Under the pieces are notes generated by a model. It was given only the letters and a program-made list of their open reading frames with translations. It was not told the origin of the DNA and did no database searches. A DNA stretch of 64,000 bases from Roseivivax isoporae LMG 25204 (GTDB taxonomy: Bacteria; Pseudomonadota; Alphaproteobacteria; Rhodobacterales; Rhodobacteraceae), in NCBI RefSeq assembly GCF_000521865.1, contig NZ_JAME01000024.1, positions 1 to 64,000 on the forward strand. The letters run 5' to 3'. The translations under genes were made by a program, and so were the position numbers. Positions 43,875 through 58,865 of the stretch are shown here, one piece after another. Each line of letters starts with the position of its first letter. Positions within the stretch are counted from its first letter, which is position 1.

Positions 43875-45803
43875 ATGTCCGACAGACCCCTGACGCCGCT
43901 CCTCGACCGGGTGCGCACGCCCGCCGATCTCAAGTCGTTCAGCGACGGCGAACTGCGCGTGCTCGCCGACGAATTGCGGGCCGAAACCATCTCGGCCGTA
44001 TCCGAGACCGGCGGCCATCTCGGCGCCGGCCTCGGCGTGGTCGAGCTGACCGTGGCGCTGCACGCGGTGTTCGACGCGCCGCGCGACAAGCTGATCTGGG
44101 ACGTGAGCCACCAGAGCTATCCGCACAAGATCCTGACCGGGCGGCGCGACCGCATCCGGACGCTGCGCCAGAAGGACGGGCTGTCGGGCTTCACCAAGCG
44201 ATCCGAATCGCCCTACGACCCGTTCGGCGCGGCGCATTCCTCGACCTCGATCTCGGCCGCGCTCGGCTTTGCCGTGGCGCGCGACCTGGGCGGAGACAGC
44301 GACACCGGCCACGGCGATGCGATCGCGGTGATCGGCGACGGCGCCATGTCGGCGGGCATGGCCTACGAGGCCATGAACAACGCGGGCCATCTCGGCAAGC
44401 GGATGATCGTCATCCTGAACGACAACGAGATGTCGATCGCGCCGCCCACGGGCGCGCTGTCCTCCTACCTCTCGCGGCTCTACGCCGAAGCGCCCTTCCA
44501 CACGCTGAAGGACGCCGCCAAGAGCGCCGTGTCCTTCCTGCCCGAACCGTTCCGAGAGGGCGCCAAGCGCGCCAAGGACATGCTCAAGGGCATGGCCATG
44601 GGCGGCACGCTCTTCGAGGCGCTGGGCTTTTCCTATCTGGGTCCGATCGACGGGCACGACATGTCGCAGCTGCTGCCGGTGCTGCGCGCGATCAAGACGC
44701 GCGCCCACGGGCCGGTGCTGCTGCATGTCATCACCCGCAAGGGCAAGGGCTACGCCCCGGCCGAAGAACGCGCCGACCGCGGCCACGCCACCGGCAAGTT
44801 CGACGTCCTGTCGGGCGAGCAGAAGAAGGCGCCGTCGAACGCGCCGGCCTATACCCGCGTGTTCTCGGACGCGCTGGTGGCCGAGGCGACGCGCGATCCC
44901 CGCATCTGCGCGGTGACGGCGGCGATGCCCGACGGCACCGGGCTCGACCGGCTGGCCGGCATCTTTCCCTCGCGCGTCTTCGACGTGGGCATCGCCGAGC
45001 AGCACGCGGTGACGTTCTCGGCGGGCCTTGCCGCCGGCGGCATGCGCCCCTTCTGCGCGCTCTACTCGACCTTCCTGCAGCGAGGCTACGACCAGGTAGT
45101 GCACGACGTGGCGATCCAGCGCCTGCCGGTGCGCTTCGCCATCGACCGCGCGGGACTGGTGGGCGCCGACGGCGCGACGCATGCAGGCGCCTTCGACGTG
45201 GCGTTCCTGTCGAACCTGCCGGGTTTCGTCGTCATGGCGGCCGCGGACGAGGCCGAGCTTGTACACATGGTGGCGACCGCCGCGGCACATGACGAGGGAC
45301 CCATCGCCTTCCGCTACCCGCGGGGCGAAGGCGTCGGCGTCGAGATGCCCGAACGCGGCGTCCCGCTCGAGATCGGGCGCGGCCGCATCGTGCGCGAGGG
45401 CGCGCGCGTGGCGCTCCTGTCCTTCGGCGCGCGCCTCAAGGAGGTGACCGAGGCCGCCGAGGCGCTCGGCGCCCGCGGGCTCTCGCCCACCATCGCCGAC
45501 GCGCGCTTCGCCAAGCCGCTCGACCGCGAGATGATCCTGCGTCTCGCTCGCGACCACGAGGCCCTCATCACCGTCGAGGAAGGCGCCATCGGCGGCTTCG
45601 GCAGCCACGTGGCGCAGCTCCTGGCCGAGGAAGGCATGTTCGACGAGGGCCTGCGCTTCCGCTCCATGGTGCTGCCCGACAGCTTCATCGACCAGGCGAG
45701 CCCACAGGACATGTACGCGGTGGCGCGGCTCAACGCCTCCGACATCGAGGCGAAGGTGCTCGAGGTCCTCGGCGTGGCGCGGATGGGCGAACGGCGCGCC
45801 TGA
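43875..45803 (+). CDS. dxs: 1-deoxy-D-xylulose-5-phosphate synthase
   Basis: A 642-residue thiamine-diphosphate enzyme that opens the MEP pathway by joining pyruvate and glyceraldehyde 3-phosphate. The N-terminal part has [21 protein letters not shown] and [18 protein letters not shown]. The ThDP/Mg motif is [20 protein letters not shown], and the pyrimidine domain has [21 protein letters not shown]. The C-terminal transketolase-like domain ends near EVLGVARMG. The length matches the family. It follows ispA in the same direction, so the two first steps of the isoprenoid supply are co-expressed. Confidence 0.97.
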
Positions 45804-49001: not shown

Positions 49002-50198
49002 TCAGCCCGGGCTCAGACCGCGCAGCTTCTCGGCCCGGCGACGCAGGACCTCGAGCGTCGTCAGCAGGCAGATCGAGATCGCCACGAGCATGGTCGCCAC
49101 CGCGAGGATCGTGGGCGAGATCTGCTCGCGCAGGCCGGTGAACATCTGCCAGGGCAGCGTCTGCTGGTTGGCCGAGCCGACGAACAGCACCACCACGACC
49201 TCGTCGAACGAGGTGATGAAGGCGAAGAGGCCGCCCGATATCACGCCCGGCAGGATCAGCGGCATCTGCACCCGGAAGAACGTGGTGACCGGATCGGCGC
49301 CCATGTTCGCCGCCGCCCGCGTCAGCGACCGGTCGAACCCCACGAGCGTCGCCGTCACCGTGATGATGACGAAGGGGATGCCGAGCGCCGCATGCGCCAG
49401 CACGACGCCCAGGTAGGTGCCCTGCAGGCCGATGCGCGAATAGAAGAAGTACATGCCCGCGGCCGAGATGATGAGCGGCACGATCATCGGCGAGATCAGG
49501 ATCGCCATGATCGCCCGGCGGAACGGCACGTGCGGCTGGCTGAGACCGATCGCCGCCAGCGTGCCGAAGCCCACCGACAGGAGCGTGGCCACCGGCGCGA
49601 TGAGAAGCGAGTTCCGCAGCGCCTGCTGCCAGTCCGCCGAGTTGAAGAAGTCGCGGTAGTGCTTCAGCGAGTAGCCCGCCGGATCGAAGGCCAGCATCTC
49701 GGGCGTGAAGGTGAAAAAGTTCTGCGCGTTGAACGACAGCGGCATCACCACGAGGATCGGCGTGATGAGGAAGACGAAGATCGCGCCGCAGATCACGCGG
49801 AAGCTGTAGTGCCACAGCACCTGGCCCGAGGTCAGGTAGGGCGGCAGCTTGCTCCGGTAGCGGCAGCGCCCGACCCAGTAGATGAACCAGCCGATGAACC
49901 AGCCGAACAGCGTGCCGACCACGAGGCCGGGCAACGCGCCGATCCAGAAGCCCGCCACCGCGAAGAGCGCGAGCACGCCCCACTTGAAGGTGCGTTCGTG
50001 CGCGACGCCCGCGACCGCCATGGCAAGGAACGCGAGGCCCGCGCAGAGCGCGGCCCCCACCACGATCCCGGCCAGTCCCGAGCCCTGCGCGGTGCCCACG
50101 AACAGCCCGAAGAACGCCCCGGCCGCGGCGACCACGCCGCAGGTGAACCCGTAGGGCATGGTCCGCGTCTCGGTGATGACGACGTCCGATGTCGACAT
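49002..50198 (-). CDS. polyamine-type ABC transporter permease (PotC-like) with N-terminal membrane extension
   Basis: A 398-residue permease. The C-terminal 270 residues are PotC-like, with VFLITPILVVMPLSFNA, then SLLIAPVATLLSVGFGTLAAI and the coupling loop RAAANMGADPVTTFFRVQMPLILPG (in short AAANMGADPVTTFFRVQMPL). The first ~130 residues are an extra region with about four hydrophobic segments (GAFFGLFVGTAQGSG, VVGAALCAGLAFLAMAVAG, VLALFAVAGFWIGALPG, VVGTLFGWFIGWFIYWVG) not found in standard PotC (about 265 residues). It follows the PotB-like gene by 4 bp. The transported substrate is not identified; the linked M24/M20 genes suggest a cyclic amidine or acylated diamine. Confidence 0.85.
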   Translation of the reverse strand: MSTSDVVITETRTMPYGFTCGVVAAAGAFFGLFVGTAQGSGLAGIVVGAALCAGLAFLAMAVAGVAHERTFKWGVLALFAVAGFWIGALPGLVVGTLFGWFIGWFIYWVGRCRYRSKLPPYLTSGQVLWHYSFRVICGAIFVFLITPILVVMPLSFNAQNFFTFTPEMLAFDPAGYSLKHYRDFFNSADWQQALRNSLLIAPVATLLSVGFGTLAAIGLSQPHVPFRRAIMAILISPMIVPLIISAAGMYFFYSRIGLQGTYLGVVLAHAALGIPFVIITVTATLVGFDRSLTRAAANMGADPVTTFFRVQMPLILPGVISGGLFAFITSFDEVVVVLFVGSANQQTLPWQMFTGLREQISPTILAVATMLVAISICLLTTLEVLRRRAEKLRGLSPG

Positions 50199-50202
50199 GT
50201 CC

Positions 50203-51924
50203 TCAGCCCCCCAGCTTCACGTTGTCGATGCCGACGATCTTGTCGTAGGCCCAGTAGAGGATCAGCACGACCGCGAGCAGGATCGTGCCCAGCGCCGCCG
50301 CGAGCCCCCAGTTCAGCGAGGACGAGATGTGGTAGGCGATCCGGTTCGAGATGAACGTGCCGGTGGTGCCGCCGACGATCTCGGGCGTGATGTAGTAGCC
50401 GATGGCGAGGATGAAGACGAGGATCGACCCCGCGCCGATGCCCGGCACCGATTGCGGGAAGTAGACCCGCCAGAACGCCGTCCAGTTGGTCGCGCCAAGC
50501 GACTTCGCGGCGCGCACGTAGGAGGGCGGGATCGTCGACATCACCGAGTACATCGGCAGGATCATGAACGGCAGCAGGATGTGCGTCATGGCGACGATCG
50601 TGCCGAACTGGTTGTTGATCATCACGAGCCGGCTGCCGTCGCCGATGAGCCCCAGCCAGACGAGCACGTCGTTGATCACACCCTGCTGCTGCAGCATCAC
50701 CTTCCACGCGCTCGTCCGCACCAACAGCGACGTCCAGAACGGCAGGAGCACGAGGATCATCAACAGGTTCGCGGTCCGCATCGGCAGGTTCGCCAGAAGG
50801 TACGCGACCGGGTAGGCGAGCAGGATGCAGCAGCCCATGATCGTCAGCGACATGAACAGCGTCCGCTTGAACAGCAGGCCGTAGATCTGCTGGTCCTCGG
50901 GCTGCATGGCAGCACCGTCCGCCGTCTGCCGCATGTCGACGGCGTTCAGGAAGTATCCGGACGTGACCGGCCCAGAGAACGTCTGGATCGTCGCCCAGAC
51001 ATTCGGGTCGCCCCAGTCCTCGTCGATCTCGTCGATGAAGTAGCTGCGGAAATCGACGGTCTCGAAGTCCGACAGCGCCCCGGCCGCCTCCCGCAGGAGC
51101 GCAGCCGTGTCGCCGTCGAAGGCGTCGGCCGCCGCGGGCGTCGCCATCAGGTCCTGGTAGAGAGCCGTGTAGGCCACCGGCCAGGGCTCGTCCTCGGCCA
51201 GCGAATCCCGGCGTGCGCCGGCGGTGAAGGTGGCGAAGTTCTGGTAGACCGCGGTGGTGCGCGGCAGCATCTCCTCCGCCGCCTCGGACGGGCGGAAGCC
51301 CGGCGGCGCGCCCTCCTGGCCGTCGTCGAACCACTCGGTGTAGCCCGCGCGCCAGTCCGGGTCGCCCATGAGCGCGATCCAGGTGGCGGGTTCTTCCCAG
51401 GCCTCGTTCAGATCCTCGAACTGGTCGAGGTAGACGTCGCCGATGTCCTCGATGTCGCGGCCCGATTGCCGGAACAGCGACGAGATGCCCGTCGTCTCGT
51501 AATTGAGGCGTGTGCCGAGCCGGGTGTGGTTCTTGAGCTGCGCCGCCAGCGCCATGTCGTAATAGAAGGCCTCGAAGACCTCCCCGCCCGGCGCCTCGTC
51601 CGACTCGTGGTCCCAGCTGCCCAGAAGCTCGACCGTCCGCGGCAGCGTCTCGGGCACGATCTCGTTCTCGACCGAGCGGAACAGCATGTCCGCGATCGGC
51701 GCGATGAAGGTCAGCAGCACGAAGATCAGGAGCGGCGCGATCAGCATCAGCGCCCGCAGCTTCTGCCGGCGCAACGCGCGCGCCAGCGATCTCTTGAGCG
51801 GCGTGCCGTCGGCGGCCAGCATCTGTCCCGATTTCGAGACGTTCTGGTCCGCGCGTTTCTGCGCCTGCGGGTCGTCCGCCCGGGCGGGGGCGCCGACCGT
51901 GCTGTCGTTGGTCGCGTCGCTCAT
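50203..51924 (-). CDS. polyamine-type ABC transporter permease (PotB-like) with large extracytoplasmic insertion
   Basis: A 573-residue permease, twice the size of PotB. TM1 lies at about 57-85 (LRALMLIAPLLIFVLLTF). Residues ~87-345 form a soluble, acidic segment (for example DVYLDQFEDLNEAWEEP, ALMGDPDWRAGYTEWFD) that should face the periplasm. The remaining membrane segments start near residue 350 (TLFMSLTIMGCCILLAYPVA), and the coupling loop is AAKSLGATNWTAFWRVYFPQ. The ending GIDNVKLGG is shared with related long permeases in other alphaproteobacteria, as far as I recall. It follows the DUF1330 gene by 4 bp. Confidence 0.85.
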   Translation of the reverse strand: MSDATNDSTVGAPARADDPQAQKRADQNVSKSGQMLAADGTPLKRSLARALRRQKLRALMLIAPLLIFVLLTFIAPIADMLFRSVENEIVPETLPRTVELLGSWDHESDEAPGGEVFEAFYYDMALAAQLKNHTRLGTRLNYETTGISSLFRQSGRDIEDIGDVYLDQFEDLNEAWEEPATWIALMGDPDWRAGYTEWFDDGQEGAPPGFRPSEAAEEMLPRTTAVYQNFATFTAGARRDSLAEDEPWPVAYTALYQDLMATPAAADAFDGDTAALLREAAGALSDFETVDFRSYFIDEIDEDWGDPNVWATIQTFSGPVTSGYFLNAVDMRQTADGAAMQPEDQQIYGLLFKRTLFMSLTIMGCCILLAYPVAYLLANLPMRTANLLMILVLLPFWTSLLVRTSAWKVMLQQQGVINDVLVWLGLIGDGSRLVMINNQFGTIVAMTHILLPFMILPMYSVMSTIPPSYVRAAKSLGATNWTAFWRVYFPQSVPGIGAGSILVFILAIGYYITPEIVGGTTGTFISNRIAYHISSSLNWGLAAALGTILLAVVLILYWAYDKIVGIDNVKLGG

Positions 51925-51928
51925 GGTC

Positions 51929-52216
51929 TCAGGTCCCTTCTACGAGGACGATGCTGCTGGTGGCCGTCCGGCGCCGGATCTCGGCGACCTCCTGGTAGGC
52001 CGGATCGTGATAGGCGCGCCGCGCGGTCTCGTAGTCCGGAAACTCGATCACCACGTGCCGATCGAGGCTCTCGCCCTCGACCGTCTCGGACGTGCCGCCG
52101 CGGACCACGAAGCGCCCGCCATGTCCTTCGAGGATCGGCGTGTCGCGTTCGACGTATTCGCGGTACCCTTCGGGATCGCGAACCGAGATGTGGGCGATGA
52201 TGTAGCCCTTGGGCAT
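51929..52216 (-). CDS. DUF1330 family protein
   Basis: A 95-residue dimeric alpha-beta barrel-type protein of DUF1330 (NIPSNAP/EthD-like fold). The sequence has the family pattern KGYIIAHISVRDPEGYREYV, FVVRGGTSETVEGES, HVVIEFPDYETARRAYHDPAY and a final short strand SIVLVEGT. The biochemical role of the family is unknown. It lies inside the transporter operon, between the binding-protein gene (87-nt spacer with a hairpin) and the first permease (4 bp), an unusual insertion that suggests a link to the imported compound. Confidence 0.9.
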   Translation of the reverse strand: MPKGYIIAHISVRDPEGYREYVERDTPILEGHGGRFVVRGGTSETVEGESLDRHVVIEFPDYETARRAYHDPAYQEVAEIRRRTATSSIVLVEGT

Positions 52217-52260
52217 GGGCCTCTTCCCTTCAGTCCGCGCGCCGCGGCCGCTTGTGGAAA

Positions 52261-52290
52261 GGTCCGGGGCGCGCGATGCCGCCCCGGACC
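52261..52290 (-). other. perfect hairpin after the binding-protein gene
   Basis: GGTCCGGGGC (52261-52270) and GCCCCGGACC (52281-52290) are a perfect 10-bp inverted repeat with a 10-nt loop. It begins 13 nt after the stop codon of the binding-protein gene and is followed on the minus strand by TTTCC. Like the hairpins after frcB and aapJ, it probably stabilises or attenuates the message. Confidence 0.65.
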
Positions 52291-52303
52291 CCGGTTCACC
52301 CGC

Positions 52304-53416
52304 TTACTGCGCGAGCCAGGACTGGAACTTCGCGTCGATGTCGTCGCGGTAGTCCGCCCACCACTCGTAGTTCTGCACGAACGAGTTCTGGCTGTTCTCC
52401 GGGTTGGTCGGCATGTGCGGCGCCATCTCGATGCCGAGTTCGGCATGGGTCGAGACGAGCGGCGCCGAGCTCTGCCGGGCCGGGCCGTAGGAGATGTACT
52501 TCGCCTGGTCGGCGAGGCGCTGCGTGTCGGTCGCGAAGTAGAGGAAGTCGAGCACGCGGTTCAGCCGGTCGTCGGGCAGGCCCGCCGGGATCACCCAGCC
52601 GTCGATGTCGTAGACCTGCGCGTCCCAGAGCATGGCGAGCGGCTGGTCCTGCTCGGCGATCGCCGAGAAGAAGCGACCGTTGTAGGACGAGCCGATCACG
52701 GCCTCGCCGTCCGCAAGCGTCTGGATGCTCTCGGCCGCCGACGACCACCAGATCGTCTGGTCCTTGATCGTGTCGAGCTTGGCGAGCGCGCGGTCCTGGC
52801 CCTCTTCGGTCTCGAGGACCTCGTAGATCTCCTCGAACGGCACGCCATCGCACATCAGCGCCCATTCCATGTTGTTGATCGGGCGACGCTCGAGCGTGCG
52901 CTGACCCGGGAAGGTCTCGGTGTCGAAGAGCGCGCAGATGTCGGTGGGGGTCGCGCCGTTCCACTCCTCGACGTCGGTGCGGTAGGCGTTGGTGATCGAG
53001 TAGGCGATCTGCGGGATGAAGCAGTCGGACACGATCATGTCGCCGAAATCGTCGCTGGCCTCGGTGCCGTCCGGCGCCGCCGCGAGGATGTCGTCGTGGT
53101 CCACTTCCATCGCGAGACCCTCGTCGCAGAGGCGCATGGCGTCGGCCGCCGTCACGTCCACGAGATCCCACGTGATGTTGTTGGCTTCGGCCATCGCGCG
53201 CAGCTTGGCGACCGCCTCGGGCGAGCTTTCGTCCCAGGTGACCGAGACGTCCGAGTTCGCCTCGAGGTACGGCTCGACATAGGCCTTGACCTGGCTGTTC
53301 TGGTAGGCGCCGCCCCAGCTCACCAGGGTCATGCTGTCGGCCATGTCCTGTGCGGCCACGCCGCCCCCGGCGACCGTCAGCACAGTGGTGGCGAGAAGCG
53401 TCTTGGAGATGTTCAT
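52304..53416 (-). CDS. polyamine-type ABC transporter periplasmic binding protein
   Basis: A 370-residue extracellular solute-binding protein of the PotD/PotF type. Signal peptide: MNISKTLLATTVLTVAGGGVAAQ. The mature chain begins MADSMTLVSWGGAYQNSQVKA, a beginning typical of this group, and includes WDLVDVTAADAMRLCDEGLAME, QIAYSITNAYRTDVEEWNGA, FPGQRTLERRPINNMEWALM and LADGEAVIGSSYNGRFFSA. The ligand is unknown; the same fold binds putrescine, spermidine, opines and other small cations. It follows the ATPase gene by 123 bp and is followed by a hairpin. Confidence 0.88.
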   Translation of the reverse strand: MNISKTLLATTVLTVAGGGVAAQDMADSMTLVSWGGAYQNSQVKAYVEPYLEANSDVSVTWDESSPEAVAKLRAMAEANNITWDLVDVTAADAMRLCDEGLAMEVDHDDILAAAPDGTEASDDFGDMIVSDCFIPQIAYSITNAYRTDVEEWNGATPTDICALFDTETFPGQRTLERRPINNMEWALMCDGVPFEEIYEVLETEEGQDRALAKLDTIKDQTIWWSSAAESIQTLADGEAVIGSSYNGRFFSAIAEQDQPLAMLWDAQVYDIDGWVIPAGLPDDRLNRVLDFLYFATDTQRLADQAKYISYGPARQSSAPLVSTHAELGIEMAPHMPTNPENSQNSFVQNYEWWADYRDDIDAKFQSWLAQ

Positions 53417-53539
53417 GCCTTACTCCCTAAAGCACCCGTTTGAATTGAGGGGGTCCACGTTACGGGTGAAACGCCGGACCCTGTGGTGCGCGCCGCCGCG
53501 CAGGCATTCGAGATGCGCAAAGACGGCGCGAATGCGACC

Positions 53540-54640
53540 CTAGCTCGCGTCGAGCGCGCGGCAGTCCTCGGCCTTCCAGCCGATCTTGACCGTCTCACCC
53601 GGCGCGAAGCGCACCTGGTCGGCGCGGTTTCGGGTCTTCACGATGAACTCGTCGTTCCCCGCGACCGAGAGCCGCGTGCGGAACACGTCGCCCATGTAGA
53701 TGAATTCCCGGACCTGCGCGTCGAGCGTATGCGCCTCGGGACCGAGATCGGGATTGAACTCCACCCGCTCCGGGCGGATCGACACCCGCGTGCGCTCGCC
53801 CTTGCGCGCCACGTTGACGGGCATCGCATCGATCACGTTGCCGTTGTCGAGCTTCACCGTGCAGCGGTTGCCGCCGATCTCCTCGACCACGCCCTCGAGC
53901 GTGTTGTTCTCGCCGATGAACTGCGCGACGAAGCTGTTCTGCGGCGCCTCGTAGAGCTCGTCGGGCGGCGCCAGCTGCTGGATGCGCCCGTCGTCGAACA
54001 CTGCCACGCGGTCCGACATGGTCAGCGCCTCGGTCTGGTCGTGCGTCACGTAGACCACGGTGATCCCGAGCTCGTCGGCGATCCGCTTGATCTCGAACTG
54101 CATGTGCTCGCGCAGCTGCTTGTCGAGCGCGCCGAGCGGCTCGTCCATCAGCACGAGCTCGGCCTCGAAGACCAGCGCGCGGGCAAGCGCGATCCGCTGC
54201 TGCTGGCCGCCCGACAGCTGCGCCGGGCGCCGCCCGCCGAACTGGCCCATCTGCACCATCTCGAGGGCGCGCTGCACCTTCTTCTCGCGCTCGGCCTTCG
54301 GCATCTTCCGCACTTCGAGCGGGAACGACAGGTTCTCGGCCACCGACATGTGCGGGAACAGCGCGTAGTTCTGGAACACCATGCCGATGCCGCGTTTGTG
54401 GGGCGGGATGTTGTTGATCGGCCGGCCATCCAGCTTGATCTCGCCGTGGGTCGCGGTCTCGAACCCCGCCAGCATCATCAGGCAGGTGGTCTTTCCGGAC
54501 CCCGAGGGGCCGAGCATCGTCAGGAATTCGCCCTTTGGCATGGCGAGATTGAGGTCCTTAACGACCAGCGACTCGCCGTCATAGCTTTTCTGCACGCGTT
54601 CGAATGCGACGAACGCATCGTTCTCAGCCGTTTGCGCCAC
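53540..54640 (-). CDS. polyamine-type ABC transporter ATP-binding protein (PotA-like)
   Basis: A 366-residue ATPase. Walker A is GPSGSGKT at 44-51, the signature is [16 protein letters not shown], Walker B is LVLMDEPLGALDKQL, and the switch His is in VVYVTHDQTEAL. The C-terminal part is a TOBE_2 domain with VSIRPERVEFNPDLG and FIYMGDVFRTRL. The start is taken as GTG 54640, because GGGAG lies 7 nt upstream and the frame above it is not family-like. It is the first gene of the minus-strand transporter operon and is divergent from the M24/M20/GntR operon. Confidence 0.9.
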   Translation of the reverse strand: MAQTAENDAFVAFERVQKSYDGESLVVKDLNLAMPKGEFLTMLGPSGSGKTTCLMMLAGFETATHGEIKLDGRPINNIPPHKRGIGMVFQNYALFPHMSVAENLSFPLEVRKMPKAEREKKVQRALEMVQMGQFGGRRPAQLSGGQQQRIALARALVFEAELVLMDEPLGALDKQLREHMQFEIKRIADELGITVVYVTHDQTEALTMSDRVAVFDDGRIQQLAPPDELYEAPQNSFVAQFIGENNTLEGVVEEIGGNRCTVKLDNGNVIDAMPVNVARKGERTRVSIRPERVEFNPDLGPEAHTLDAQVREFIYMGDVFRTRLSVAGNDEFIVKTRNRADQVRFAPGETVKIGWKAEDCRALDAS

Positions 54641-55083
54641 TTTCTGGCTCCCTGTGTTGACGGCGGATTTCCTCCGCTCGCGTTGCCCCCGATAAAACCG
54701 CGTGGTGTGGCCAGATGCAACTGTCTCGGCGGGCGCAGACATTCTGCGGCCCGCATCCGGGAAGTCTGTGCAGAAAAGCGGCGTTTCACAGCCAAAAGCG
54801 TCACCCGATCGGGGCCGCACGGACGATTCGACTGCAGGCAGCGCGAGCCACCCCGGCCCGCCTCGCGTCAGGCGTGCATCGCCGCCATCACGGTCGCCCA
54901 CGTCTTCGTGTGGCCGTGATGTACACAACATGCCGGCATCCCGCGCCCGGACCCGCCCATGATGCGAAAAAAATGGGCGCGAAATGCAAATGCGACCCCG
55001 GATGTCGTTTTTCTTGGGGTGAAGATGTACACAATAACCGAGGAGGGTCCCATGCGGTTCGCAATTGGAGGAAAGGTGCGCGC
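54641..55083. promoter_or_regulatory. 443-bp shared control region between the transporter and the M24/M20 operons
   Basis: No credible gene lies here. The element GATGTACACAA occurs twice on the plus strand, at 54918-54928 and 55024-55034, each with a TGTACA core; this is the kind of site an FCD-type GntR protein such as the one encoded at 57437 might bind. An A-rich patch (54963-54975) lies between them. A strong ribosome-binding-like GAGGAGGG followed by ATG at 55052 opens a frame that runs into the M24 gene out of phase. Promoter hexamers could not be assigned with confidence. Confidence 0.5.
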
Positions 55084-56280
55084 ATGGTGTATCACCGGTT
55101 TTCTAAGGACCTGCCCTTCACCGAAGCGGAGTACACGCGGCGTCTGGACAAGACGCGCACGGCGATGGACCGCGCGGGAATCGAGGTCCTGTTCGTCACC
55201 GACCCGTCCAACATGGCGTGGCTCACCGGCTACGACGGCTGGTCGTTCTACGTCCATCAGGGCGTGATCGTCCTGCCCGACGCCGACCCCGTGTGGTGGG
55301 GCCGCAACCAGGACTCGAACGGCGCCGTGCGCACCGTCTGGATGGGCGACGACCGGGTGATCGGCTACGCCGACAACTACGTGCAGTCGACCGAGCGCCA
55401 CCCGATGGAAGACCTCGCGAGCCGCCTCGTGGGCATGGGGCTCGAGAAGGCGCGCATCGGCGTCGAGATGGACAACTACTACTTCTCGGCCAAGGCTTAC
55501 GCGACGCTGGCGCGCGAACTGCCCGATTCCACGCTGATCGACGCGACCGCGCTCGTGAACTGGCAGCGCGCGATCAAGTCCGACGAGGAACTGGTATTCA
55601 TGCGCCGCGCCGCGAAGATCTCGGAAAAGATCATCGACGGGCTGGTCGAGCGGGTCGAGCCCGGCGTGGCCAAGAACGAGGTCGTGGCAGAGGTCTACCG
55701 CGACGCGCTGACCGGGGCGGACGGGCACTGGGGCGACTATGCCGCGATCGTGCCGCTGCTGCCCTCGGGATCGGACGCCGCCGCGCCGCACCTGACCTGG
55801 GACGGCCGCCCCTTCAACCAGGGCGAAGCCACCTTCTTCGAGATCTCGGGCTGTTACCGGCGCTACCACGTGCCGTTCTGCCGCACGATCTTCCTCGGCG
55901 AGCCCTCGGACATCTTCCGCCGCGCCGAGGCCGCGCTGGTCGAGGGGCTCGAGGCCGGGCTCGAGGCCGCGCGCGCCGGCAACCGCGCCTGCGACATCGC
56001 CAACGCGCTCGCCGCGCCGCTCGAATCCGCAGGCATCGAACGCGGCGCGCGCTGCGGGTACCCGATCGGCCTCAGCTACCCGCCCGACTGGGGCGAGCGC
56101 ACCATCTCGCTGCGCTCCGAGGACGAGACCGTGCTCGAGCCCGGCATGACCTTCCACTTCATGCCCGGCCTCTGGATGTCGGACTGGGGCCTCGAGATCA
56201 CCGAGTCCATCCTCATCAAGGAAGACGGCCCGGCCGAGACCTTCTGCCACCGCCCGCGCAAGATGTTCGTCAAGGAGTGA
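55084..56280 (+). CDS. M24-family hydrolase resembling ectoine hydrolase (DoeA/EutD)
   Basis: A 398-residue creatinase/aminopeptidase-P-fold protein. It matches ectoine hydrolases in TDPSNMAWLTGYDGWSFYVHQ (in parts: WLTGYDGWSFYVHQ), RAIKSDEELVFMRRAAKIS and GYPIGLSYPPDWGERT. Those enzymes open the ectoine ring to N-acetyl-diaminobutyrate. The usual M24 metal ligands are not kept: the first Asp is Glu253 in FFEISGCYRRY, and the second is lost in HVPFCRTIFLG. This agrees with the metal-independent mechanism described for EutD. ATG 55084 has GGAGG 12 nt upstream. No eutABC, uehABC or ehuABCD genes are adjacent, so the real substrate may be ectoine or a related cyclic amidine. Confidence 0.8.
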   Translation: MVYHRFSKDLPFTEAEYTRRLDKTRTAMDRAGIEVLFVTDPSNMAWLTGYDGWSFYVHQGVIVLPDADPVWWGRNQDSNGAVRTVWMGDDRVIGYADNYVQSTERHPMEDLASRLVGMGLEKARIGVEMDNYYFSAKAYATLARELPDSTLIDATALVNWQRAIKSDEELVFMRRAAKISEKIIDGLVERVEPGVAKNEVVAEVYRDALTGADGHWGDYAAIVPLLPSGSDAAAPHLTWDGRPFNQGEATFFEISGCYRRYHVPFCRTIFLGEPSDIFRRAEAALVEGLEAGLEAARAGNRACDIANALAAPLESAGIERGARCGYPIGLSYPPDWGERTISLRSEDETVLEPGMTFHFMPGLWMSDWGLEITESILIKEDGPAETFCHRPRKMFVKE

Positions 56281-56285
56281 CGCCC

Positions 56286-57440
56286 GTGCTGCACGAGACC
56301 GAACACGTCCTCAGGGGCCTCGTCGCGCATCCCTCCGTGTCGGCCGACAGCAATGTCGCGCTGATCGAGCACATGGCGAACCGGCTCGAGGATGCCGGCG
56401 CGCGGGTCGAGATCCTGCGCGACGCGACCGGGACCAAGGCGAACCTCTGGGGCACGATCGGGCCGGAGATCCCGGGCGGCGTCCTGCTGTCCGGCCATTC
56501 CGACGTGGTGCCGGTGGCCGACCAGGACTGGTCCACCGACCCCTGGGCGCTCGCCGAACGCGGCGACCTGCTGCTCGGGCGCGGCACCTGCGACATGAAG
56601 GGCTTCATCGCCGCGGCCATCGCCATGGCGCCGGGCTTTGCCGCCACCCACCTGCGTCGCCCGGTGCATTTCTGCTTCACCCATGACGAGGAGGTGGGAT
56701 GCCTCGGCGCGCAGGCGCTGGTCCCTCTCCTCAGGGACCGCGAGGTCCTGCCCTCCGTGGCCATCGTGGGCGAGCCGACCGAGATGCGCATCATCGAGGG
56801 GCACAAGGGCTGCTGCGAATATACCGCGCGGTTCCACGGGCTCGAGGGGCACGGCTCGCACCCCGACCGGGGCGTGAACGCCGTGGTCTACGCGGTCCGC
56901 TACGTCACCCGCCTGATGGAACTGGCGGAGGAGCTGAAGCAGCGCGCGCCCCGCGACAGCCGCTTCGACCCGCCCTGGACCACGGTCAATGTCGGCAAGC
57001 TCGCGGGCGGCGTGGCGCACAACGTCATCCCCGGCCGCGCCGAGGTCGAGTGGGAGATGCGCCCGGTCCAGTACGGCGACGCGGATTTCGTGAAGGAGGC
57101 GCTCGCCGCCTACGTGGCGAACGAGCTCCTGCCGGCCATGCGCGCCGTGTCGCCCCGAGCCGACATCACCGTCGAGACCATCGGCGAGGTCGTGGGCCTC
57201 GAGCCGATGGAGGACAACATGGCCCGCGCGCTGGTCGCGCAGCTGACGGGGGGCAACTCCGCCGACGTGGTGCCCTTCGGCACCGAGGCGGGCCTCTTCC
57301 AGGAACTCGGCATGTCCGTGGTGGTCTGCGGGCCGGGATCGATCGCCCAGGCGCACAAGCCCGACGAATACGTCTCGCGGCCGCAGCTGACCGAATGCCT
57401 GACCATGCTCGAAGGGTTGCGGCGGAACCTCGCCTCATGA
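56286..57440 (+). CDS. M20-family deacetylase (acetylornithine deacetylase ArgE type)
   Basis: A 384-residue di-zinc amidohydrolase. The ligand motifs are complete: His in LLSGHSDVVPVADQDW, bridging Asp in LGRGTCDMKGF, the catalytic Glu pair in FTHDEEVGCLGA, Glu in IVGEPTEMRII, and the final His in IAQAHKPDEYVS. A dimerisation domain (about 180-295) includes GLEGHGSHPDRGVNA. The start is GTG 56286, with AAGGAG 9 nt upstream. It begins 5 bp after the M24 gene and overlaps the regulator gene by 4 nt. In this operon it most likely deacylates the product of the M24 enzyme. Confidence 0.85.
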   Translation: MLHETEHVLRGLVAHPSVSADSNVALIEHMANRLEDAGARVEILRDATGTKANLWGTIGPEIPGGVLLSGHSDVVPVADQDWSTDPWALAERGDLLLGRGTCDMKGFIAAAIAMAPGFAATHLRRPVHFCFTHDEEVGCLGAQALVPLLRDREVLPSVAIVGEPTEMRIIEGHKGCCEYTARFHGLEGHGSHPDRGVNAVVYAVRYVTRLMELAEELKQRAPRDSRFDPPWTTVNVGKLAGGVAHNVIPGRAEVEWEMRPVQYGDADFVKEALAAYVANELLPAMRAVSPRADITVETIGEVVGLEPMEDNMARALVAQLTGGNSADVVPFGTEAGLFQELGMSVVVCGPGSIAQAHKPDEYVSRPQLTECLTMLEGLRRNLAS

Positions 57441-58078
57441 CCGCCGAGGAGCGGCATCTCCGGCTCTACCAGGAAATCCGAAGCCGCATCTGCCTGCTCG
57501 ACTACCCGCCCGGCGCCAAGCTCGGCGAAGAGGCGCTCGCGGCGGAATTCGGCGTCTCGCGCACGCCGGTGCGCCGGGTGCTCGCCCGGCTCGCCGACGA
57601 GGGACTGGTGGCCGCGCGCCACGGCGTCGGCACCATCGTCACCGACGTGGACGCGCGCGAGCTCGGCCAGGTCTACGAGCTGCGGATGGAACTCGCGCAG
57701 CTCGCAGGCTGGCTCTCGCCGCTGCCCATCACCGAACGGGTGGTGACCGAGGCGCAGGACTTCGTCCAGCGCGGCGCGGCGCTCGCCGCGGCGCCCGCGC
57801 CGCGCGACTTCGCGACGCTCAACATGGCGTTCTTCGATTTCGGCCTGGGGCTTTGCGGCAATGCCGCGCTGGCCGAGATGTCGGAGCGGCTCTACTACCG
57901 CACCGCGCGGATCTGGCTCCAGACCATTCCCGCGCTCGACCTCGCGCAGGAGGCCGCGTTCTTCCACGACGAGATGAGGCAGGTCGCAACCGCGCTCGAG
58001 GCACGCGATCCGCGCGCGGCAGCGCTGATCCGCCGCGCGCACATCTCCATGTCCTACCAGCGTCTCGCCGCCGCCTGA
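57437..58078 (+). CDS. GntR-family transcriptional regulator, FCD subfamily
   Basis: A 213-residue regulator. The N-terminal winged helix has YQEIRSRICLLDYPPGAKLGEEALAAEFGVSRTPVRRVL (key part AAEFGVSRTPVRRVLARLADEG) and the wing ARHGVGTIVT. The C-terminal helical FCD domain (about 75-205) binds small organic acids in related proteins and includes ELGQVYELRMELAQLAGW and FHDEMRQVATALEARDPRAA. It overlaps the deacetylase gene by 4 nt, so it is autoregulated within the catabolic operon and probably also controls the divergent transporter operon. Confidence 0.88.
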   Translation: MTAEERHLRLYQEIRSRICLLDYPPGAKLGEEALAAEFGVSRTPVRRVLARLADEGLVAARHGVGTIVTDVDARELGQVYELRMELAQLAGWLSPLPITERVVTEAQDFVQRGAALAAAPAPRDFATLNMAFFDFGLGLCGNAALAEMSERLYYRTARIWLQTIPALDLAQEAAFFHDEMRQVATALEARDPRAAALIRRAHISMSYQRLAAA

Positions 58079-58082
58079 AGCC

Positions 58083-58865
58083 TCAGAGCTCGGGGTTGTC
58101 CGGGTACCAGTCGGGCGTCAGCACCTCGGCTCCCTCGACCATCGAGGCGAATTCCTGCGGGTCCTGCGTGCCGCCGTCGCGGCCGCGGAAATGGTAGGGA
58201 TAGACATAGGTCGGCGAGAAGGCGTTGACCGCCGCCGCCGCCTGCGTGGCATCCATGGTGAAGGGCAGGTTCATGCAGACGAACGCGAGGTCGATGTTCT
58301 CGAGCGCGCGCACCTCGGGCGTGTCCTCGGTGTCGCCCGAGATGTAGACGCGGAAGCCCTCGAAGCTCAGAACGTAGCCGTTGTCGCGCCCCTCGGGGTG
58401 GAAATCCTGCCGCCCCTCGGTGGTGTTGTAGGCGGGGATCGCCTCGATGCCGACGCCTTCCCAATCGGTCGTGTCGCCGTTGCCGATGGATTCGGCCCCC
58501 GACAGCTCTTCCGGCAGCATGTCCGCCACCGCCGGGTTCACGATCAGGTGGGTGTTCTCGCCCATGAGCGCGGTCAGCGTGTCGACCTCGTAATGGTCGC
58601 CGTGCTCGTGCGTGATGAGGATGAGGTCGGGCGCCGGCAGGTCGCCATAGGCCTCGGCACCGCCGACCGGGTCCACGTGGATGACGCCCGCGGGGGTCTC
58701 CATGACAAAGGAGGCGTGGCTGACGGGATGCACGGTGATCGTGCCGCCCGGGGTCTCGAAGCTGTTGTTGGCCCCTTCCTGCGCCAGCGCGGCGAAGGGC
58801 AGGATCGCGGTCACGCCGGCCGCGGCGCTCGCGGTGGCAAGGAAGGTGCGTCGGGTCTGGGTCAT
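58083..58865 (-). CDS. Tat-exported metallo-beta-lactamase-fold hydrolase (UlaG-like)
   Basis: A 260-residue MBL-fold protein. The twin-arginine signal is TRRTFLATASAAAGVTAILP, with cleavage near ALAQEG. The mature part has HPVSHASFVMETPAGVIHVDP, the metal-binding LITHEHGDHYEVDTL, VYISGDTEDTPEV and a final His in YPYHFRGRDGG. The family includes L-ascorbate-6-P lactonase UlaG and many uncharacterised hydrolases; the substrate is unknown. It converges on the GntR gene (4 bp between stop codons) and is divergent from the kpsT-like gene. Confidence 0.85.
   Translation of the reverse strand: MTQTRRTFLATASAAAGVTAILPFAALAQEGANNSFETPGGTITVHPVSHASFVMETPAGVIHVDPVGGAEAYGDLPAPDLILITHEHGDHYEVDTLTALMGENTHLIVNPAVADMLPEELSGAESIGNGDTTDWEGVGIEAIPAYNTTEGRQDFHPEGRDNGYVLSFEGFRVYISGDTEDTPEVRALENIDLAFVCMNLPFTMDATQAAAAVNAFSPTYVYPYHFRGRDGGTQDPQEFASMVEGAEVLTPDWYPDNPEL

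Follow-up and report, generated by a model that had tools for sequence, protein, structure and literature searches.

In Alphaproteobacteria, the catabolic genes for ectoine are accompanied by the importers UehPQM/UehABC or EhuABCD, and EutE is the deacetylase (PMC13188858, PMC5924519; these papers, like the others given here by accession, are cited from extracts). EutABC serve the use of hydroxyectoine (PMC8739950, PMC13188858). Ectoine consumers have been counted by the presence of eutD beside eutE, which gave 363 of 8,850 genomes (PMC8739950), and a genome survey has focused on EutD together with EutE and EutB (PMC13188858); in both papers, genomes were chosen by means of EutE. No importer genes were found nearby in 122 of 539 predicted consumers, and further importers may await discovery (PMC5924519). 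A 2011 study reported doeA-like genes without doeB and considered that ectoine is either not metabolised in such cases or metabolised by other routes (PMC3187862). Among roseobacters, the ectoine transporter has been described as unique, or nearly so, to R. pomeroyi (PMC10130141). Here, we describe an eight-gene locus of Roseivivax isoporae LMG 25204, located in a 64,000-nt stretch of contig NZ_JAME01000024.1 (hereafter the window, whose numbering is used throughout). With a probability of roughly three in four, this locus is one half of a split pathway for the utilisation of ectoine and 5-hydroxyectoine, in which an M24 hydrolase of the EutD type is followed by an M20 deacetylase at the place of EutE. 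In the open-licence papers searched, we found no report of such an M20 deacetylase, or of an importer such as the one encoded here, in ectoine use.

The locus resembles the UehABC/EnuR-type ectoine clusters in that an EutD-type hydrolase comes first and EutB, EutC, AsnC, Ssd and Atf carry the pathway onward, here from another contig (C8) of the same genome. It differs from them by the presence of an M20 protein and not EutE, of a Pot-type ATP-binding cassette (ABC) importer and not the UehABC tripartite ATP-independent periplasmic (TRAP) transporter, and of a GntR-FCD regulator and not the MocR-type EnuR, and also by the splitting of the pathway genes over two places. Sinorhizobium-type ehu-eut clusters, such as that of Sinorhizobium sp. 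B11, likewise contain EutD, EutB, EutC, an aminotransferase, Ssd and an ABC importer, but in these doeB/EutE directly follows doeA and ehuBCDA is present. Rhizobium BK196 is intermediate, with an Ehu importer and yet M20 and GntR-FCD. The putative ectoine clusters of Bacillota with abgB are similar in lacking EutE and containing an amidohydrolase gene, but they have a PucR regulator and another gene set (PMC13188858). Finally, the importer shares its fold, and probably its zwitterion pocket, with binders of gamma-aminobutyrate (GABA) like SAR11 PotD (8jv1) and Atu4243, with ectoine as its ligand proposed from the context.

An earlier note on this DNA had described these gene families in two divergent operons, with a deacetylase and a regulator of families other than those of EutE and EnuR, and had proposed that the two-step chemistry (ring opening, then deacylation) was nevertheless kept. 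All eight genes were confirmed with open frames, three on the plus and five on the minus strand, and the family assignments hold; the EutD-type M24 protein and the M20 protein at the place of EutE support the proposed chemistry. The possibility that the two operons are not conserved together was not borne out, as both recur jointly across genomes. We examined 80 loci, the best 80 of 585 from an M24 search of named genomes and hence close relatives. M20 is present in 60 of these and the binding protein of the importer in 68 (counted in the fetched stretches, some of which are clipped by contig ends), so the arrangement is not due to chance.

The M24 gene (55084 to 56280, plus strand, starting with the ATG at 55084) encodes a protein with Creatinase_N and Peptidase_M24 domains, which matches TIGR02993 (ectoine hydrolase DoeA) with 610.7 bits (E 1.1e-183). 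Among solved structures, its best relatives, 6twj and 6twk, both carry the name Ectoine hydrolase DoeA. Its Glu253 aligns with Glu255 of 6twk, reportedly the catalytic residue (Mais et al. 2020). This column is kept in all 28 EutE-partnered and in 62 of 63 M20-partnered proteins. In a tree of 147 proteins (all trees presented here were built by a quick method and carry SH-aLRT support values only), the M24 protein sits within the EutD set of 143 rows including 6twk, from which four rows of other M24 proteins, used as outgroup, split off with a support of 98. It is hence placed inside the DoeA/EutD clade, a position on which the earlier note had staked its proposal. The partner, EutE or M20, switches only twice over the 91 labelled rows of this tree, in which the EutE label of 6twk (presumably the H. 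elongata protein) was taken from the adjacent doeAB of H. elongata. The M24 protein is 91% identical to its Roseivivax halotolerans counterpart and 56-66% identical to 30 EutDs scoring above the TIGR02993 cut-off. This cut-off is exceeded in 12 of 49 genomes (48 from among the 80 loci, plus the window genome), in one of them through a second EutD. The window genome itself has a single strong EutD-like match, the M24 protein, the next two scoring 69 and 67 bits. Identification as a prolidase or a creatinase was rejected, the corresponding profiles and solved relatives being far weaker. The profile, the solved relatives, the glutamate of the active site and the tree all identify the M24 protein as an ectoine hydrolase of the EutD/DoeA type.

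The adjoining gene (56286 to 57440, plus strand, with a GTG as predicted start) encodes a Peptidase_M20 protein that scores 450.3 bits against NF005710 (cut-off 412) and 368.9 bits against TIGR01892, the profile of the acetylornithine deacetylase ArgE (cut-off 297.7). The metal and catalytic motifs of ArgE are retained in an alignment with 7rsf. EutE (TIGR02994) was not found in the window genome, where the best match, on another contig, reaches 77.8 bits for a cut-off of 402.7, and the canonical eutD-eutE adjacency is absent from the locus. EutE exceeds its cut-off in two of the 49 genomes mentioned above and in 39 of 295 Rhodobacteraceae genomes drawn evenly from a larger group (hereafter the family sample), the window genome being among neither. 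EutD is present in 193 genomes of the family sample; it is accompanied by EutE in 38 of these, by the window-type M20 in 119, by both in three and by neither in 39. This exclusion gives a Fisher p of 1.6e-14, a value in which shared descent overstates independence. Gene adjacency gives a similar picture: of 150 EutD matches listed, 34 have an adjacent EutE, 73 an adjacent M20, none both and 43 neither. The M20 proteins are 53-85% identical within their family versus 31-39% to paralogues of the same genome; as the M20 tree has long branches and does not place the paralogues cleanly outside, only this identity gap was used. A MocR-like gene, doeA and an argE-named M20 gene are also consecutive on a Mesorhizobium plasmid. 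The AbgB of the Bacillota clusters presumably belongs to another M20 branch. The M20 protein very probably stands in for EutE, as an unrelated deacetylase.

The other pathway genes are present in the window genome on contig C8, separate from the M24 contig, in the order eutB-eutC-asnC-ssd-atf, asnC encoding an AsnC/Lrp protein. EutB scores 423.5 bits (cut-off 413.35) and Atf 831.6 (cut-off 687); EutC, with 448.6, stays under its own cut-off of 471.65 and passes NF006141 (PRK08291) with 468.7 against 408. In the stretch opened on this contig (72000 to 91000), the operon adjoins bacteriochlorophyll genes (geranylgeranyl reductase, PUCC protein and chlorophyll synthase). In other genomes, the two halves of the pathway lie together. 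One stretch of Pseudooceanicola atlanticus contains the ATPase, binding protein, DUF1330, PotB, Atf, Ssd, AsnC, EutC, M24, M20 and GntR genes. In Rhizobium BK196 and in a Hoeflea locus, M24-M20-GntR is divergent from an operon with EutB, EutC, AsnC, Ssd and Atf, and the first genes of the Rhizobium operon pass the NCBIfam cut-offs for EhuB, EhuC and EhuA (the last in an EhuA-containing fusion). The EhuB-like and the fused EhuDA-like proteins of Hoeflea are 34% and 50% identical to those of Rhizobium, respectively. The Rhizobium genome has a single EutD-like match and no match to EutE. Through this linkage to both eut and ehu genes, ectoine and hydroxyectoine are indicated as the substrates of the M24-M20 pair. 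EutB or EutC is found within 7 kb of M24 in 20 of the 80 loci, mostly from Roseovarius, and M20 is missing from the fetched stretch in 17 of them.

The operon on the minus strand encodes a candidate importer. It comprises a PotA-type ATPase (53540 to 54742, start uncertain, 54742 being the nearest fitting in-frame ATG; the profile scan covered 53540 to 54775), a periplasmic binding protein of the SBP_bac_8 family (52304 to 53416; PF13416) in the branch of the GABA and opine binders, a DUF1330 protein (51929 to 52216; PF07045, E 1.3e-33), a PotB-type permease with a long N-terminal extension (50203 to 51924; PF00528, with NF007044 matching residues 346-564 of 573) and a PotC-type permease (49002 to 50198; PF00528, NF007047). 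The ATPase passes TIGR01187 (potA) with 376.2 bits for a cut-off of 355.6, and the binding protein has no NCBIfam match at E 0.001. The structure nearest to the model of the binding protein (pLDDT 93.7) is 8jv1, SAR11 PotD with GABA, at 34% identity, followed by opine binders and the GABA binder Atu4243 (30% identity for the Atu4243-like structure), and the polyamine-binding PotD/PotF structures rank only from the 35th place, with 14-19% identity. A plain polyamine importer is thus thought unlikely, and the PotABCD-type importer of the earlier note stands for its ATPase but not for its binding protein, which is not of the polyamine type. An arginine and an aspartate, invariant in 42 sequences, match Arg203 and Asp226 of Atu4243 (by hand count on the alignment), two residues that we take to hold GABA. 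This would suit a small zwitterion: ectoine, but also GABA. The DUF1330 protein goes with the importer: of the 95 DUF1330 matches in the family sample, 72 have a listed match of the binding protein no more than 2 kb away. No function was found for the DUF1330 protein. The locus contains Pot-type transport proteins only and no EhuABCD or UehABC genes, which were not searched for elsewhere in the genome.

The third gene of the plus-strand operon (57437 to 58078) encodes a regulator with GntR (PF00392) and FCD (PF07729) domains (the profile scan began at 57440, one codon short of the start). The M24, M20 and GntR genes are separated by gaps of a few bases or overlap, and the divergent intergenic region measures about 340 bp, given an ATPase start at 54742. 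A k-mer comparison of 440 bases around the M24 start revealed the palindrome WTGTRYACAW, present in the window as box 1, ATGTACACAA, at 54919 to 54928 and, 106 bp away, as box 2, ATGTACACAA, at 55025 to 55034. The palindrome occurs upstream of M24 in all 16 loci with GntR-FCD and in the window, and in none of the 64 loci without this regulator, counts made in the same loci from which the pattern was derived. The fetched loci, 1.59 million bases in all, contain 30 sites, of which 25 lie upstream of M24 in GntR-FCD loci; the window has a third site at 45259. Six loci, that of P. atlanticus among them, likewise have boxes spaced by 105-107 bp, the others having a single box or another spacing, and the Rhizobium and Hoeflea loci also carry boxes. 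GntR-FCD adjoins M24 in only 16 of the 80 loci, indicating that it belongs to one branch of the variant, for which it has a clear predicted operator. EnuR, a MocR-type protein combining a GntR head with an aminotransferase domain, is not encoded at the locus and was not searched for elsewhere in the genome. Convergent with the GntR gene, a beta-lactamase-fold protein is encoded at 58083 to 58865 and is kept in five of the 80 loci, with 68-78% identity. No RNA family above its gathering score and no tRNA was detected in the window.

The gene identities, the presence of the rest of the pathway with the exception of EutE, the exclusion between M20 and EutE and the conservation of the boxes were computed; the catalytic activities, the substrate of the importer, the binding to the operator and the direction of the regulation we infer. 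The ABC importer would bring ectoine or its hydroxylated form into the cell, where the M24 enzyme would open the ring by means of its conserved glutamate to give N-alpha-acetyl-L-2,4-diaminobutyrate. The M20 metallo-deacetylase, in place of EutE/DoeB, would then remove acetate to yield diaminobutyrate. The enzymes from contig C8, namely Atf, Ssd and, for the hydroxylated form, EutB and EutC, would complete the route to aspartate. The GntR-FCD protein would control the divergent promoter through the two WTGTRYACAW boxes. In this scheme, the two enzymes are well supported by genome comparisons and the importer moderately so.

Several observations weigh against a split ectoine pathway. The M24 protein misses the TIGR02993 cut-off of 613 by 2.3 bits, and one M20-partnered EutD sits within the EutE-partnered part of the tree. 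In the family sample, 39 EutD genomes yielded no EutE and no window-type M20 at the limits applied and may contain a third deacetylase or more distant copies, and 20 of the 80 loci, many of them from Roseovarius with eutB or eutC, lack M20 in the stretch. When 20 of the 49 genomes whose M20 is not beside a listed M24 were opened (most of them chosen because M24 was listed elsewhere), M20 adjoined EutB, EutC, AsnC, Ssd or Atf in eight and a window-type transporter in three, in line with the pathway, but it had no recognised eut neighbour in another eight and stood beside a second M24 in the last one. No WTGTRYACAW box is present in 19 kb around the contig C8 operon, which must thus be controlled otherwise, perhaps by AsnC, nor is there one near the eutB operon of two Roseivivax relatives. 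One genome of the set (G013) carries a full eutABCDE set in addition to a separate M24-M20-GntR set. Finally, the binding protein is present in 21 genomes without EutD, and copies linked and unlinked to EutD are mixed on its tree, with 16 changes for a shuffled mean of 18.4 and a value as low in 34 of 500 shuffles. This tree hardly separates the two kinds of copies and gives no support to an ectoine-specific clade among the binding proteins.

These last points would fit a rival reading, in which the two enzymes degrade ectoine but the neighbouring importer, only loosely linked to them, carries GABA or various zwitterionic amino compounds, ectoine entering by another transporter. We regard this as a serious contender, though one we lean away from. 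In its favour, GABA or opines are the ligands in the nearest solved structures of binding proteins, and four of the 20 unlinked copies that were opened have an aminotransferase and a second Pot-type transporter as neighbours. On the other hand, EutD is present in 146 of the 167 genomes with the binding protein (odds ratio 12; the count used 146 of the listed rows and omitted second binding-protein copies), and in 47 of 103 listed pairs the two lie within 13 kb of each other, none of these pairs being in a genome with EutE. Moreover, the importer occupies the place that EhuB has in Rhizobium, opposite the same M24-M20-GntR set and boxes. By this analogy of position, ectoine is favoured as the substrate of the importer. 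The import of ectoine suggested by the earlier note therefore stands as to a Pot-type transporter of a different family at the locus, but its substrate is only likely, given the 21 genomes without EutD and the GABA binders as nearest structures.

The M24-M20 pair could instead act on another cyclic amidine or on an N-acyl diamine and not on ectoines. The limited identity of M24 to the above-cut-off EutDs and the coexistence of both systems in G013 would fit this idea, as would an Alisedimentitalea plasmid on which an M24 protein 66.7% identical to that of the window lies in an unrelated operon, beside trimethylamine methyltransferase, short-chain dehydrogenase and racemase-like genes, with no M20 or EutE in the stretch. 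We nevertheless consider it improbable, since the genes neighbouring the pair include eutB, eutC, asnC, ssd and atf (and, in Rhizobium, ehu genes), the active-site columns are conserved, and the other genes for ectoine use are present in the window genome, EutE being the one not found. The same neighbours narrow the choice of substrates left by the earlier note to ectoine or 5-hydroxyectoine and disfavour the other cyclic amidines and N-acyl diamines. In G013, whose complete set also includes asnC, ssd and atf and in which EutA was recognised by 31% similarity, the two sets could serve two substrates, and this genome offers a natural test of a substrate difference between the pairs. The least probable alternative by far, an ordinary acetylornithine deacetylase lying beside EutD by accident, would agree with the TIGR01892 score of M20 but not with its mutual exclusion with EutE or its proximity to eut genes even away from M24, and M20 was rejected as the ArgE of the arginine pathway because ArgJ is present in the window genome (398.5 bits, cut-off 298), so that M20 is not needed for arginine synthesis.

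Two further observations concern related gene sets. In eleven loci, from Ruegeria, a SAR116 member and others, a second module of varying completeness lies beside a window-type transporter. It contains EutA-like, PepQ-like M24, diaminopropionate ammonia-lyase-like, DUF1989 and further M24 genes, and its substrate may be a related compound of cyclic or diamino type. One of these loci has neither EutD nor M20 in the stretch, and its genome has EutD-EutE elsewhere. M24 matches are also present in 28 Klebsiella plasmid records. In the one that was opened, doeA-doeB is accompanied by ehuABCD and a MocR-like gene, and the annotation names ectoine catabolism.

The variant described here appears widespread in the sampled family. 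We tentatively suggest, at a little under even odds, that the main route for ectoine and hydroxyectoine in Rhodobacteraceae consists not of the textbook pair EutD-EutE but of EutD with an unrelated M20 deacetylase and a zwitterion-type Pot importer with its DUF1330 protein, one branch being controlled by GntR-FCD at paired TTGTRYACAA-like boxes. Surveys keyed to EutE would have missed ectoine consumers of the M20 type. If our reading is correct, marine ectoine users have been undercounted, and the near-uniqueness of the R. pomeroyi transporter, as stated in the extract cited (PMC10130141), does not imply that ectoine use is rare in roseobacters. Which deacetylase and which importer a given ectoine user employs would then become a question for simple tests.

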